Positions 53,320-57,354 of a stretch of 64,000 nucleotides of DNA are shown piece after piece; the stretch's first letter is position 1, and each line of letters opens with the position of its first letter. The DNA is from Vulcanimicrobiota bacterium (GTDB taxonomy: Bacteria; Vulcanimicrobiota; Vulcanimicrobiia; Vulcanimicrobiales; Vulcanimicrobiaceae), in assembly GCA_027452165.1 (NCBI GenBank), contig DAIDGX010000023.1:1-64000 (forward strand), in the 5' to 3' direction. A model generated the notes under the pieces. It worked only from the letters and a program-made list of their open reading frames with translations. It ran no database searches and had not been told where the DNA came from. A program made the translations under genes and the position numbers.

Positions 53320-53430
53320 CTCAAGATGGTGCGTGCGGCACTTCGTGTACCATGGCCAAGGGTTCTCCCGTCCCCTGGGCCACCCCCTCCCGGGAGTTGC
53401 CGCCGCCTGTTTTGAAACCCTAGGCGAGGT
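53284..53430 (-). ncRNA. candidate structured small RNA or attenuator leader
   Basis: Read on the minus strand this intergenic stretch folds into successive hairpins. One is a CTCCCGGGAG palindrome near 53390-53399. The second is TGGCC-AGGG paired with CCCT-GGCCA (about 53353-53382). The third is ATGGT...ACCAT containing CACGAAGTG (about 53325-53354). The T-run terminator above follows. An early GCGGCGG (about 53402-53410) can also pair with the terminator's CCGCCGC, as an antiterminator would. No known RNA family was recognised; the 5' end is a guess. Confidence 0.35.
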
Positions 53431-53488
53431 TGGGGTGGTTCGAAGTCTCGTCATGAGCGCGCTCGCACCACTCCTCACAGGAGTCCAC

Positions 53489-54121
53489 GTGCCACAAGCG
53501 GCGAAGCCGCCGAAAATTCCGCAAGGCAAGGCGTCGAACCACCCGGTGCCGAGCACCGAGAGCTTCGATCGCATCGTTGACGATTTCCAGCGCCGTCTCT
53601 ACGGGTTTGCCCTGCGCATGACCGGCAACCGTGAAGACGCCGAGGAGATCGTCCAAGATGCGTTCGTCCGCGCGTTTCGCGCCCTCGGAAAGATGTCGCT
53701 CGAGCAGCGCAGCGAGCTTCGCCTGCAGCCGTGGCTCTATACGATCACCCTCAACGTCACGCGCAATCGGCTGCGTAGCAAACGCCCCACCAACGTGGCG
53801 CTCGATGCATTGGCCGATCCCGACGCGCTGCTGCGGGAGTCCCACGAAGGGCCGGCGCGTCCCGAGGCGATCGTGGAGCGCAACGCTGAAGTGGCGCTGG
53901 TCGAACGCGCCCTGCTGCAGTTGCCGATGCACCTGCGTGCAGCCGCGACCCTGCGCTTCATCGAGGGCCGTAGCCACCCCGAAATCGCCGAAATCCTCAA
54001 CCAACCGATCGGCACCGTGAAATCGCACGTCCACCGTGCGGTGCGAATCCTGCGCCGCATCCTCGGACCGCAGATCGGACGACTTGCCCCCGAAGGAGCC
54101 CCTCTCCATGCGTTGTCGTGA
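53489..54121 (+). CDS. ECF-type RNA polymerase sigma factor
   Basis: A sigma-70-family factor with regions 2 and 4 only, 210 residues from a GTG at 53489 that has AGGAG 5 bases upstream. An ATG at 53453 is an alternative. Region 2: FDRIVDDFQRRLYGFALRMT, then GNREDAEEIVQDAFVRAFRA. Region 4: LLQLPMHLRAAATLRFIEGR, HPEIAEILNQPIGTVKSHVH. A short Pro/Lys-rich N-terminal tail precedes region 2. The following gene overlaps its end by 14 bases and starts with a zinc anti-sigma motif, the usual sigma/anti-sigma arrangement. Its target promoters cannot be read here; autoregulation of this operon is the common rule. Confidence 0.93.
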   Translation: MPQAAKPPKIPQGKASNHPVPSTESFDRIVDDFQRRLYGFALRMTGNREDAEEIVQDAFVRAFRALGKMSLEQRSELRLQPWLYTITLNVTRNRLRSKRPTNVALDALADPDALLRESHEGPARPEAIVERNAEVALVERALLQLPMHLRAAATLRFIEGRSHPEIAEILNQPIGTVKSHVHRAVRILRRILGPQIGRLAPEGAPLHALS

Positions 54122-54848
54122 AGTCGACGAACTCTGGGACGACGTGCGAGGCGAGTGCAAAGCCTCGCTCAAAGAAGCCGTTGACCATCACCTGCGTGCT
54201 TGTCCCCCCTGCCAAGACCTCTACGAAGAGTACGAGGGCGTTGCGTATTGCCTCTCGTGCTTGCCGCAGCCGGAGCCGGGGTGCGATCTTACCAAGCGTG
54301 TCGTCGAGCACATCGCACAGCTCAAGCACAAGCAGCGGGCAACGCCGATCGAGCTGACGTCGGTGACCACCCCGCTCGGATGCCTCTACGTGGGCTTCAA
54401 AGGGCGCCGGATCGCCTACATCGGCATCGACACCGGCGCGCCGATAACCGACGTGTGCAAGCGCGTCGAGGCGCGACTGCGGCGCACCGTGGTGAGCGCC
54501 GAGGCGCCTCCGTGGCTGCGCGAAACGCTGGAGACCTTCTTCACGACCTGGCGCGTAGACGACGCGCTCGTCGATATCGAAGACCTCACGCCCTTCGAAC
54601 AGGCGGCCCTGCGCGCCGCCGCGCAGATTCCGCCCGGTGAGGTACGCTCGTACGCCTGGGTCGCGTCGCAGATCGGGCGCCCGCGCGCCGCGCGCGCGGT
54701 CGGACAGGCCATGGCGCGCAATCCGCTCCCGCTCTTGTTTCCGTGTCACCGCGTCGTCGATTCATCGGGCGCGCTGCACAATTATGGGTACGGCGTGGAG
54801 ATGAAAGCGCGGATCCTGCAGATGGAAGGGTACCATCCCGAAAGGTAG
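54108..54848 (+). CDS. zinc anti-sigma domain fused to O6-alkylguanine-DNA alkyltransferase
   Basis: A 246-residue two-part protein translated in overlap with the ECF sigma gene (GAAGGAG 9 bases before the ATG). Residues 1-60 carry the zinc anti-sigma (ZAS) pattern C3-x24-H28-x3-C32-x2-C35 (MRCREVDELW..., DHHLRACPPCQDLYEEYEG), with extra cysteines at 17, 48, 51 and 59. Residues about 80-150 match the Ogt/MGMT N-terminal domain (TSVTTPLGCLYVGFKGRRIA). Residues about 160-246 match the DNA-binding catalytic domain, with FEQAALRAAAQIPPGEVRSY, AWVASQIGRPRAARAVGQAM, and the acceptor C213 in FPCHRVVDSSG. MGMT removes O6-alkyl groups irreversibly onto its cysteine. Joined to an anti-sigma domain, it could sense alkylation damage and free the sigma factor. 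The fusion is direct from sequence; the signalling model is inference. Confidence 0.9.
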   Translation: MRCREVDELWDDVRGECKASLKEAVDHHLRACPPCQDLYEEYEGVAYCLSCLPQPEPGCDLTKRVVEHIAQLKHKQRATPIELTSVTTPLGCLYVGFKGRRIAYIGIDTGAPITDVCKRVEARLRRTVVSAEAPPWLRETLETFFTTWRVDDALVDIEDLTPFEQAALRAAAQIPPGEVRSYAWVASQIGRPRAARAVGQAMARNPLPLLFPCHRVVDSSGALHNYGYGVEMKARILQMEGYHPER

Positions 54849-54877: not shown

Positions 54878-55591
54878 GTGGCTAAACACGTCCTCATCGC
54901 CGGCTTCGAACCGTTCGGCGGCGATAAAGTCAGTCCCAGCGAGATGGTTGCACGCAGCCTCGACGGTCGTATGATCTCGGGGCGATCTCTTGCCGTGCGC
55001 GTGATTCCGGTCGAAACGCGCAACGTGCGCGAACGATTCGAACAGGCGCTCGTGCAAGATAATCCCGATATCGTGATCATTCTCGCGCAGGCCGGTGGCC
55101 GTAGCGCGCTCGCGATGGAGCGGGTGGCCGTAAACGTCCTCGACTTCGAGATTCCCGACAACGTCGGCGTCATGCGCAAAGGCGATGTGATCACCCGCGG
55201 CGGTGCCGATGCACGCCTCTCGAACATTCCCTTCACGAGCGTGCTCGATAGCTGGCACGCCAACGGTGTCCCGGGATACGTCTCCAATTCGGCCGGTACG
55301 TACATCGGGAACCAGGCACTCTACGAAGTGCTTGGACTCACGGAGGCGGCCGCGCCCCCCGTGGTGGCCGGCCTCGTCCATGTGCCGTACCTTCCCGCGC
55401 AAGCGATCGCAGCGGGCTCGGAATCGAACCCTTCGATGTCCTTCGATCTCGTAAAAAAGGGCATCGAACTCATGATCGAAACACTCGTGCCGTGGGTGGA
55501 ACAGCGCACGCCCGACGCCAAAGCCGCGCCGGCGCGCGGTCAGGGCAAGTCGCTTTGGATTCCCCGCGGAGTGAAGGAAGCAGAACGCTGA
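54878..55591 (+). CDS. pyroglutamyl-peptidase I homologue lacking the catalytic cysteine
   Basis: A 237-residue C15-family protein from a GTG at 54878 (VAKHVLIAGFEPFGGDKVSP). The family aligns without gaps: the catalytic Glu is E81 (ALAMERVAVNVLDFEIPDN), and the catalytic His is H168 (AGLVHVPYLPAQ). The nucleophile position (Cys144 in Bacillus amyloliquefaciens numbering) is Gly144: YVSNSAGTYIGNQALY, codon GGG. Two base changes would be needed from any cysteine codon. The protein is therefore probably not a working cysteine peptidase. It may bind pyroglutamyl or other N-terminal groups, or serve as scaffold. The C-terminal tail after residue 205 is extended and Lys/Arg-rich. Confidence 0.85.
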   Translation: MAKHVLIAGFEPFGGDKVSPSEMVARSLDGRMISGRSLAVRVIPVETRNVRERFEQALVQDNPDIVIILAQAGGRSALAMERVAVNVLDFEIPDNVGVMRKGDVITRGGADARLSNIPFTSVLDSWHANGVPGYVSNSAGTYIGNQALYEVLGLTEAAAPPVVAGLVHVPYLPAQAIAAGSESNPSMSFDLVKKGIELMIETLVPWVEQRTPDAKAAPARGQGKSLWIPRGVKEAER

Positions 55592-57354
55592 GCGACCCTC
55601 GTATTTCGGCCATCCCCGACATTCACGGACACGCAAAAGGCGAGCATCGCCCCTTCGCCGAGGAACGCCCAATCGCGTACTCGGCGCGCATGCTCTTCTT
55701 GTGGTTCTACCACGCCTGCCGTCGCAATGCACCGCGGTTTCTGATGGTCTCCGACCACATCAACTACCTCACATTCGAGGATCCGGGCGCGGTGCACACC
55801 GTGCGCCGCGCGCTCAAACTCGCCCATGCGGGCGATCTCTATGGCGCGGCCGAAACGGCCGGCGTCGATGTTGCCCATGCCGGCATCGTCGGCGAGGGTC
55901 TCCGTAAGGGCATGCGCTTCTCGATCGGTGCCGAGGTCGATAACGATCCACGCGCCAGACCCGACGCTCAGAACATCGTCGATGCGATGCGCCCCGACGG
56001 CATCATCCGCTCGGTGCACTTCATTCCGATCGAACACCCCGAGAAGGGCGCCGATTGGGCATGGCCGTTTGACAATCCTGAGTTCGCGCACTTTTGGGAT
56101 CACGTCGGTACCGAGCGTGCGTGGGAGCTCTACATGGCGCGCCTGCTCGACGACTTGGAGAAGCTGCCCGGCCACATCGTCGGCCACTTCTACAAACCGG
56201 CGACGTTCGGGCATTGGCCCACCGACGCGACCCTCGAGGTCTACGAGGACCGGATGCTGCAGATCGCTCATGCACGCGGCATGGCGATCGAGGTAAACAC
56301 CCGCCCGTTCTACCGCGAGATCTCACCCGAGGAGCGCGAGAAGTACCTTACGGCACACAAACGCTTGCTGCGCAAAGCCAAGGCGCTTGGCGTAGGCGTT
56401 GCGGTCGGTTCCGACGCACACAGTCCGAAGGATCAAGGTGGAGCGTTCGACACGATACTCGCACTGCTCGACGAATGCGAGATCAACGAGCTGGTCTTCC
56501 CCGTGGCCGGGCGTTTGGCGCGGGTCGTGCTGCGCGCGACACGCGAGCACATCGAGAAGCATCAGGCCCGCGCGAGCGAACCCGCACAGCCCGGCAGCAG
56601 TATCAGCGGCCTGAGCCGTGCGGAGCTTGGTCTGCCCGAAGAGCCCGAACTCTCGGAACGCGAAGCACGCGCCGCCCGCACCACCGGCGGTCCCAAGCGA
56701 CGTGCCGCGAGCCCGGAACGCACGACGAAGAAACCAGCCGGAGCCGACGAGCCCAAGAGCTCATCGAAGCGCAGCGCCGAATCCGCCGCCTCCTCGAAAA
56801 AGGCGAAGGAGCGTAAGGGCGCCACAGCCGCCGCGCCCGATGTGCCGGAAGAGAAGCCGGCCAAGAAGCCCGCTGCCAAGCCTGCCAAGGCCACCGCCAA
56901 ACCCACCGCCAAACCCGCAGCCAAACCCGCAGCCAAACCGGCAGCGAAGCCGGCCGTGAAAGCGCCCGTGAAGGCCGCGGCCAAAAAGGCAGCTCCGGCC
57001 AAAAAGGCCGCCCCGGTCAAGACGGCGATGAAGCCCGCGGCAGCCAAGAAGACGGCGCACAAGGCCGCTACGAAGGCCGCTCCCGTCAAGAAAGCGACCT
57101 CCGCGAAGAAGGCGGCCCCAGCCAAGAAGGCTGTCACTGGCAAAAAGACGCCTCCGGCCAAGAAAGCGGCCCCAGCCAAGAAAACCGCCGCCGTCAAAGC
57201 GCCGGCGAAGGCCGTTGCCAAAGCCAAGAAGGCCCCGGCGAAAGCCGCTAAACCCGCACCCAAGAAACCTGCGGCAAAGAAGCCGGTGAAGGCCGCCGCA
57301 AAGCCGTCGAAAGGGACGACTTCCAAACAAAAATCGAGCGCGAAACGTCGCTAG
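55588..57354 (+). CDS. PHP-domain phosphoesterase with histone-H1-like Lys/Ala/Pro tail
   Basis: A 588-residue two-part protein. The N-terminal PHP domain (about 1-320) has the metal motifs PDIHGHAKGEH (HxH), MVSDHINYLTF, SIGAEVDND, RSVHFIPIEHPE, IEVNTRPFY and VGSDAHSPKDQ, as in histidinol-phosphatase and polymerase-type PHP phosphoesterases. From about residue 330 on, the chain turns into a basic tail of Lys, Ala and Pro repeats (motifs such as AAKKAAPAKKA), like histone H1 and AlgP-type proteins that bind DNA. A start is proposed at CTG 55588 overlapping the previous TGA, with AAGGAAG 7 bases upstream; a GTG at 55492 is the alternative. The tail should hold the enzyme on DNA or RNA; the substrate is unknown. 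Confidence 0.82.
   Translation: MSDPRISAIPDIHGHAKGEHRPFAEERPIAYSARMLFLWFYHACRRNAPRFLMVSDHINYLTFEDPGAVHTVRRALKLAHAGDLYGAAETAGVDVAHAGIVGEGLRKGMRFSIGAEVDNDPRARPDAQNIVDAMRPDGIIRSVHFIPIEHPEKGADWAWPFDNPEFAHFWDHVGTERAWELYMARLLDDLEKLPGHIVGHFYKPATFGHWPTDATLEVYEDRMLQIAHARGMAIEVNTRPFYREISPEEREKYLTAHKRLLRKAKALGVGVAVGSDAHSPKDQGGAFDTILALLDECEINELVFPVAGRLARVVLRATREHIEKHQARASEPAQPGSSISGLSRAELGLPEEPELSEREARAARTTGGPKRRAASPERTTKKPAGADEPKSSSKRSAESAASSKKAKERKGATAAAPDVPEEKPAKKPAAKPAKATAKPTAKPAAKPAAKPAAKPAVKAPVKAAAKKAAPAKKAAPVKTAMKPAAAKKTAHKAATKAAPVKKATSAKKAAPAKKAVTGKKTPPAKKAAPAKKTAAVKAPAKAVAKAKKAPAKAAKPAPKKPAAKKPVKAAAKPSKGTTSKQKSSAKRR
56800..57340 (+). repeat. degenerate tandem repeats encoding the Lys/Ala/Pro tail
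   Basis: Imperfect repeats of about 12-21 bases, built around AAGAAGGC(G/C)GCCCCGGCC-like units, encode AKKAAPAKKA-type peptides inside the PHP protein gene. They may vary in number between strains by slippage or recombination. The reading frame is kept throughout. Confidence 0.7.

Follow-up and report, generated by a model that had tools for sequence, protein, structure and literature searches.

The window analysed here, a 64,000-nt stretch of DNA from a Candidatus Eremiobacterota/Vulcanimicrobiota bacterium, carries on its plus strand an ECF sigma factor gene that overlaps, by 14 nt, a gene for a single chain in which a predicted zinc anti-sigma (ZAS) domain is joined to a complete O6-alkylguanine alkyltransferase (MGMT). 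The locus comprises the following features, all on the plus strand:

53413..53440, plus strand: ECF-type promoter of the sigma operon, TGAAACC-N17-GGTT, conserved 5' of sigma orthologues and found also before trxB
53453..53488, plus strand: probable true N-terminus of the sigma factor, MSALAPLL..., in frame with the GTG at 53489; the peptide is conserved in relatives, 9-12 nt past the -10 element
53489..54121, plus strand: ECF sigma factor (Pfam sigma regions 2 and 4; NCBIfam sigma70-ECF, 2.1e-26)
54108..54848, plus strand: ZAS anti-sigma/O6-alkylguanine alkyltransferase fusion, 246 aa, overlapping the sigma gene by 14 nt
54108..54347, plus strand: predicted ZAS domain, aa 1-80 (invariant C3/H28/C32/C35; match to RsiW; helices in the model)
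54114, 54189, 54201 and 54210, plus strand: ZAS residues C3, H28, C32 and C35, respectively, with C48/C51 as accessory cysteines
54348..54845, plus strand: complete alkyltransferase part, aa 81-246 (Pfam, 2.5e-29; structure model; folds 4bhb and 1sfe)
54591-54830, plus strand: MGMT DNA-binding domain, aa 162-241 (Pfam, 2.5e-29)
54741..54755, plus strand: PCHRV acceptor motif, with the C213 codon at 54744-54746, invariant in all homologues

Both conserved regions of the sigma factor were recognized by Pfam (Sigma70_r2, 5e-15; Sigma70_r4_2, 2e-12). The protein would comprise 210 aa if translated from the GTG at 53489 and 222 aa from the ATG at 53453; the upstream segment (53453-53488) encodes a conserved leader peptide, MSALAPLL(x)GVxVP, in frame with the sigma gene, and the ATG is the probable start. 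Because the promoter block lies only ~9-12 nt ahead of this conserved ATG, a nearly leaderless transcript is suggested for the sigma operon. The sigma stop codon ends at 54121, and the last 14 nt of the sigma gene are shared with the fusion, whose ATG is at 54108; a longer frame opening at a GTG (54036) was considered as the start of the fusion and set aside. From the ATG at 54108, the frame is open to 54845 (product beginning MRCREVDELW; stop codon ending at 54848), and the missed stop codon between the two domains, against which the preliminary description of this locus had cautioned, is not there.

That description had read the gene overlapping the sigma gene as one chain with a ZAS signature and a complete Ogt/MGMT domain, a reading borne out by the Pfam matches, the match to RsiW and the 14-nt overlap. 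Since the Pfam zf-HC2 match is weak by itself (aa 6-36; 7.7e-4 and 19.9 bits, under the Pfam cut-off of 22.2 bits), the anti-sigma identity of the N-terminal domain was tested independently, using a profile of 28 homologous N-termini. Searched against the PDB, this profile matched RsiW (5wuq/5wur; E=5e-5) and Mycobacterium tuberculosis RslA (3hug; 0.011), and it aligned over 72 columns, with an hhalign probability of 98.9, to the ZAS parts of membrane anti-sigma factors that are coupled to sigma factors in this phylum. The RsiW and hhalign matches rule out chance as the source of the zf-HC2 hit. In a structure model of the fusion built on a 43-sequence alignment (mean pLDDT of 82.9, mostly >90 in the MGMT part and a middling 57-78 in the ZAS part), the N-terminal domain is predicted to form helices at residues 4-15, 21-31, 33-50 and 59-74, the order expected for an anti-sigma domain. 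By sequence, this domain is of the zinc anti-sigma type, and it is predicted to bind zinc and to inhibit the sigma factor. The best solved folds for the model are M. tuberculosis Ogt (4bhb) and the C-terminal domain of Ada (1sfe); to judge from its residues, the alkyltransferase part is catalytically complete, and alkyl transfer is predicted. Neither the Ada zinc domain nor an AraC-type HTH was detected in the fusion by Pfam.

The homologue search proposed in the preliminary description yielded 43 distinct sequences of ZAS-MGMT chains encoded beside ECF sigma genes, with the sigma gene directly 5' of the fusion in 44/44 loci examined (41 overlapping by 11-14 nt and 3 adjoining). C3, H28, C32 and C35, their spacing (C3-x24-H28-x3-C32-x2-C35) and the acceptor motif P212-C213-H214-R215-V216, all as originally given, are invariant in these 43 sequences. 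The equivalents of human MGMT Y114, N137, H146 and E172 are likewise invariant, that of R128 is present in 44/45 alignment rows, and the position of human MGMT G160 is occupied by tyrosine in 44/45 rows (Y228 here); Ada has tryptophan at this position, which is thus a bulky aromatic residue in both proteins. The accessory CxxC pair, C48/C51, is more variable, with both cysteines present in 35 of the 45 rows and mostly lost together elsewhere.

Among 60 relatives searched, the full-length fusion was present in every genome of the host's own family (f1) and in 4/4 genomes of a second family of the same order (f2), and was absent from the next, neighbouring family (f3). A profile search of 149 genomes of the phylum recovered the ZAS part in 94 of the 103 genomes of f1 and f2, and every one of the nine genomes without it is <90% complete. 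Given its intactness in 43 homologues and its spread across the order, the fusion is real rather than an artefact or the product of a missed stop. No unfused version was found in the order, where two short frames (G086:C22 and G104:C165) are cut by contig ends. Several weak ZAS matches (G131, G132, G130, G029, G023, G041 and G054) proved to be ordinary anti-sigma factors encoded behind other ECF genes, without MGMT. Outside the phylum, no ZAS-MGMT chain was found in actinobacterial and plasmid searches; the all-contig scan covered close relatives. The fusion is the single MGMT of the window genome, in which neither an Ada zinc domain (PF02805) nor AlkB was found.

The promoter of the sigma operon is conserved across relatives with the consensus TGMAACC-N17-GGTY, and the operon thus looks autoregulated. 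The motif also stands before trxB, the gene for thioredoxin reductase, in both congeners, and in nearly all relatives its trxB form is TG(A/C)AACCGG-N15-GGTCGAA:

trxB promoter: TGCAACCGG-N15-GGTCGAA

On the contig of the window itself (C23:112207-112252, minus strand; L169/L108), a strong ECF-type promoter precedes trxB at a distance of ~58 kb from the sigma operon. With a single pattern, the trxB motif was found in 26/28 f1/f2 genomes vs 0/12 f3 genomes, a contrast that amounts to a single evolutionary event and is not to be counted as forty; the rate of the motif in shuffled upstream sequences was 0.00014. The putative regulon was sought by pattern scans, and a scan of 20 genomes for the motif followed by an ATG gave 42 matches, as against 9 with the reversed pattern. 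Sites 9-16 nt 5' of the ATG were found for an RND pump in each of the three congeners and for a zinc alcohol dehydrogenase in two genera; ClpB, HtrA, old yellow enzyme and a quinone-type dehydrogenase have such sites in single genomes, and the motif lies 27 nt from a thioredoxin gene in one genome. With the exception of the operon and trxB, most targets were limited to between one and three genomes. The site of the AcrB-type RND pump, TGCAACC-N17-GGTY located 9 nt ahead of the ATG, is conserved in the genus (own genome and two congeners; L167, L168 and L165). Some matches (G000:C26, G008:C3, G032:C32 and sites before gcvH) were discarded as conserved coding sequence. With the motif common to the sigma operon and trxB, the regulon looks like one for thiol and electrophile stress of the SigR/SigH type, not a pure Ada-type regulon. 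The repair genes for which the preliminary description had proposed to search the regulon did not emerge: the targets read from promoters are thiol/electrophile genes and the operon itself, and the motif is missing from an AlkA-type glycosylase gene that the window genome carries.

The interpretation that we favour, with a probability of roughly 0.6, is that the fusion system is a cytoplasmic switch responding to thiol and electrophile stress, of the SigR-RsrA/SigH-RshA kind, with the ZAS anti-sigma joined to an alkyltransferase. In the unstressed cell, the ZAS part, produced in step with the sigma factor through the overlapping genes, would keep the latter bound. Under stress, the zinc-ligand cysteines C3, C32 and C35 would be oxidized or alkylated, possibly assisted by the C48/C51 pair, upon which the ZAS fold would open and release the sigma factor, which could then transcribe trxB, a small set of detoxification genes and the operon that encodes it. 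Since the fusion is part of this operon, brake and suicide repair enzyme would be restocked together, in equal numbers, by one and the same burst. Loss of the brake upon alkylation of C213 is a plausible second input: electrophiles and methylating agents attack both thiols and DNA bases, so that thiol and alkyl inputs could act on one molecule. The domains, catalytic residues, gene overlap, order-wide conservation and common promoter motif that enter into this scheme are read directly from sequence, to which sigma binding, zinc and release through cysteine modification are added as its predicted steps.

The closest parallels are SigH-RshA of Corynebacterium and Mycobacterium and SigR-RsrA of Streptomyces, which likewise consist of an ECF sigma factor and a soluble Cys-rich ZAS anti-sigma factor, are autoregulated and have trxB as a target; by the promoter pattern, the two SigR/SigH hallmarks of autoregulation and trxB control appear to hold here as well. 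RsrA is inactivated by disulfides and by (benzo)quinone adducts on its cysteines (PMC5288332), and SigH/RshA of Corynebacterium glutamicum controls trxB, clpB and an MGMT gene from promoters with the -10 element (C/T)GTTGAA (PMC3489674). The -10 element in the window's system, GGTYGAA, is similar, whereas the -35 element, TG(A/C)AACC, differs from the GGAAT of the SigH-RshA/SigR-RsrA systems. Furthermore, RsrA and RshA are small single-domain proteins, in contrast to the anti-sigma described here, which is fused to a complete alkyltransferase.

Within the phylum, the nearest other MGMTs are encoded behind a second ECF sigma factor. In seven Vulcanimicrobiota genomes (L051-L057), the sigma gene is followed by a gene for a short N-terminal segment, an MGMT domain and, at the C-terminus, an Ada methylphosphotriester zinc domain in which four cysteines are conserved (MGMT-AdaZn; pLDDT of 84 for the one protein modelled), and equivalent pairs occur in Rubrobacter (plasmid NZ_CP007516.1, L050) and Nonomuraea. 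As in the window, related sigma genes adjoin, and mostly overlap, the alkyltransferase gene, but the partner chains carry the C-terminal Ada zinc domain and have no ZAS cysteines; their N-terminal segment bears a weak likeness to anti-sigma helix 4 (P=0.027, then P=0.0026 with more sequences). In two Streptomyces plasmids, the MGMT domain of the partner has decayed, the Ada zinc cysteines are intact and a separate intact ogt follows, so that this partner looks like a dedicated sensor, as if kept for sensing. These Streptomyces pairs (NZ_CP107901.1, L247:1548-3564; NZ_CP107856.1, L248:1572-3574) are located near metF (and metH). A plasmid of Arthrobacter sp. StoSoilB13 (NZ_AP024649.1; L249:1342-3765) has the gene order ogt - ECF sigma - MGMT - alkB, with neighbours touching or overlapping, that is, an alkylation-repair operon owning a sigma factor. 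In Embleya, the match (L049) proved to be an Ogt of the ordinary kind; no sigma gene was seen adjacent. In a phylogenetic tree, a branch with support of 98/93 separates 25 other ECFs from the sigma partners of ZAS-MGMT, those of MGMT-AdaZn and the Rubrobacter sigma; when distant Actinomycetota are added, the support falls to 83/65 and the branches are long.

These sister systems bear on the proposal, put forward in the preliminary description, of a sigma-based analogue of the Ada response, in which the chain would be altered or destabilized, and the sigma factor freed, once C213 has taken up an alkyl group or a ZAS cysteine a methyl group, every repair event serving as both an alarm and a call for replacement of the enzyme. 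Such a mechanism is compatible with the thiol route, and we consider it a serious possibility, albeit one with less than even chances. What stands of the proposal is the pair of a sigma factor with a putative anti-sigma that carries a complete alkyltransferase with conserved catalytic residues, which is the sole MGMT of a genome without Ada or AlkB. Alkylation as a signal gains further support from the grouping of the sigma factors with alkyltransferase partners and from the sister operons in the phylum and in Actinomycetota, one of which includes ogt and alkB. What does not stand is the expected regulon, the target promoters being chiefly those of thiol/electrophile genes, and the window's protein is without the Ada zinc domain. 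Because the sister systems pair related sigma factors with alkyltransferase-AdaZn proteins devoid of ZAS, alkylation, over thiol redox, is pointed to as the original or older signal. In the sister systems, this arrangement suggests that the alkyltransferase protein is the regulator of the sigma factor, a role that the predicted ZAS domain would make explicit in the window's order.

Another explanation, which we regard as slightly less likely still, is that the ZAS domain senses stress alone and that the alkyltransferase takes no part in signalling, being a regulon output that is co-translated with it and joined to it for the sake of stoichiometry. The thiol type of the regulon and the unfused MGMT gene within the C. 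glutamicum SigH network (PMC3489674) are in line with mere co-expression; however, the fusion has been retained across the order, with no unfused case found, and the sister systems link sigma factors to alkyltransferases in the absence of ZAS. It is highly improbable that the MGMT part, instead of repairing DNA, uses its DNA-binding domain to hold the sigma/anti-sigma complex on DNA or at lesions, given that conserved catalytic residues are unexpected in a pure DNA tether.

The putative thiol-stress switch with a fused alkyltransferase combines known elements in a new way. Both domain families are known, as is the occurrence of MGMT next to an ECF sigma factor (PMC8999054), whereas the chain joining a zinc anti-sigma domain to an alkyltransferase is new relative to the literature searched: neither the fusion nor its order-wide conservation nor the promoter set was found in the open-licence papers covered. 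The earlier statement that no system of this architecture had been described accordingly holds for the fusion itself but has to be qualified by the MGMT gene beside ECF122 (PMC8999054) and by that in the SigH/RshA network (PMC3489674). In the ECF122 group (Casas-Pastor et al. 2021, cited in PMC8999054), typified by Cellulomonas sp. Root930, the conserved neighbourhood includes a 6-O-methylguanine methyltransferase, and the entry lists the mechanism as unknown. By this group description, the likeness lies in the MGMT encoded beside the sigma factor, and the difference in that the group is described without an anti-sigma factor (PMC8999054), whereas the MGMT chain here bears a predicted zinc anti-sigma domain. 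A second domain following ZAS in the same chain has a precedent in ChrR, the partner of RpoE in Rhodobacter sphaeroides, although that domain is a cupin with a link to the sensing of singlet oxygen (PMC8999054), in place of the alkyltransferase found here. With Ada of Escherichia coli, the fusion shares the combination of regulation and O6-alkylguanine repair in a single chain; Ada, however, acts as an AraC-type activator and accepts alkyl groups at an N-terminal zinc site, whereas the fusion has neither an AraC HTH nor an Ada zinc domain, and control would be exerted via the sigma factor.

A chain serving at once as anti-sigma factor and suicide repair enzyme would tie together DNA alkylation damage, thiol stress and sigma control in a form conserved order-wide, and one molecule may both repair alkyl damage and signal chemical stress. 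Tentatively, repair itself might act as the alarm, with each suicidal alkylation of C213 disabling or destabilizing the brake, freeing one sigma factor, restocking the enzyme and turning on thiol defence. If so, the fusion and the sister operons would represent a family of alkylation sensors, present in both Vulcanimicrobiota and Actinomycetota, that act through sigma factors and form a counterpart of Ada. This would also offer a reason for the presence of alkyltransferase genes beside ECF sigmas elsewhere, as in ECF122, namely, that the alkyltransferase regulates the sigma factor.

Elsewhere in the window, a long open frame (55492-57354) ends in a histone-H1-like tail, its last ~200 residues forming a lysine/alanine/proline-rich repeat (AKKAAPAKK...), and the domain ahead of this tail resembles, by eye, a PHP-type phosphoesterase.
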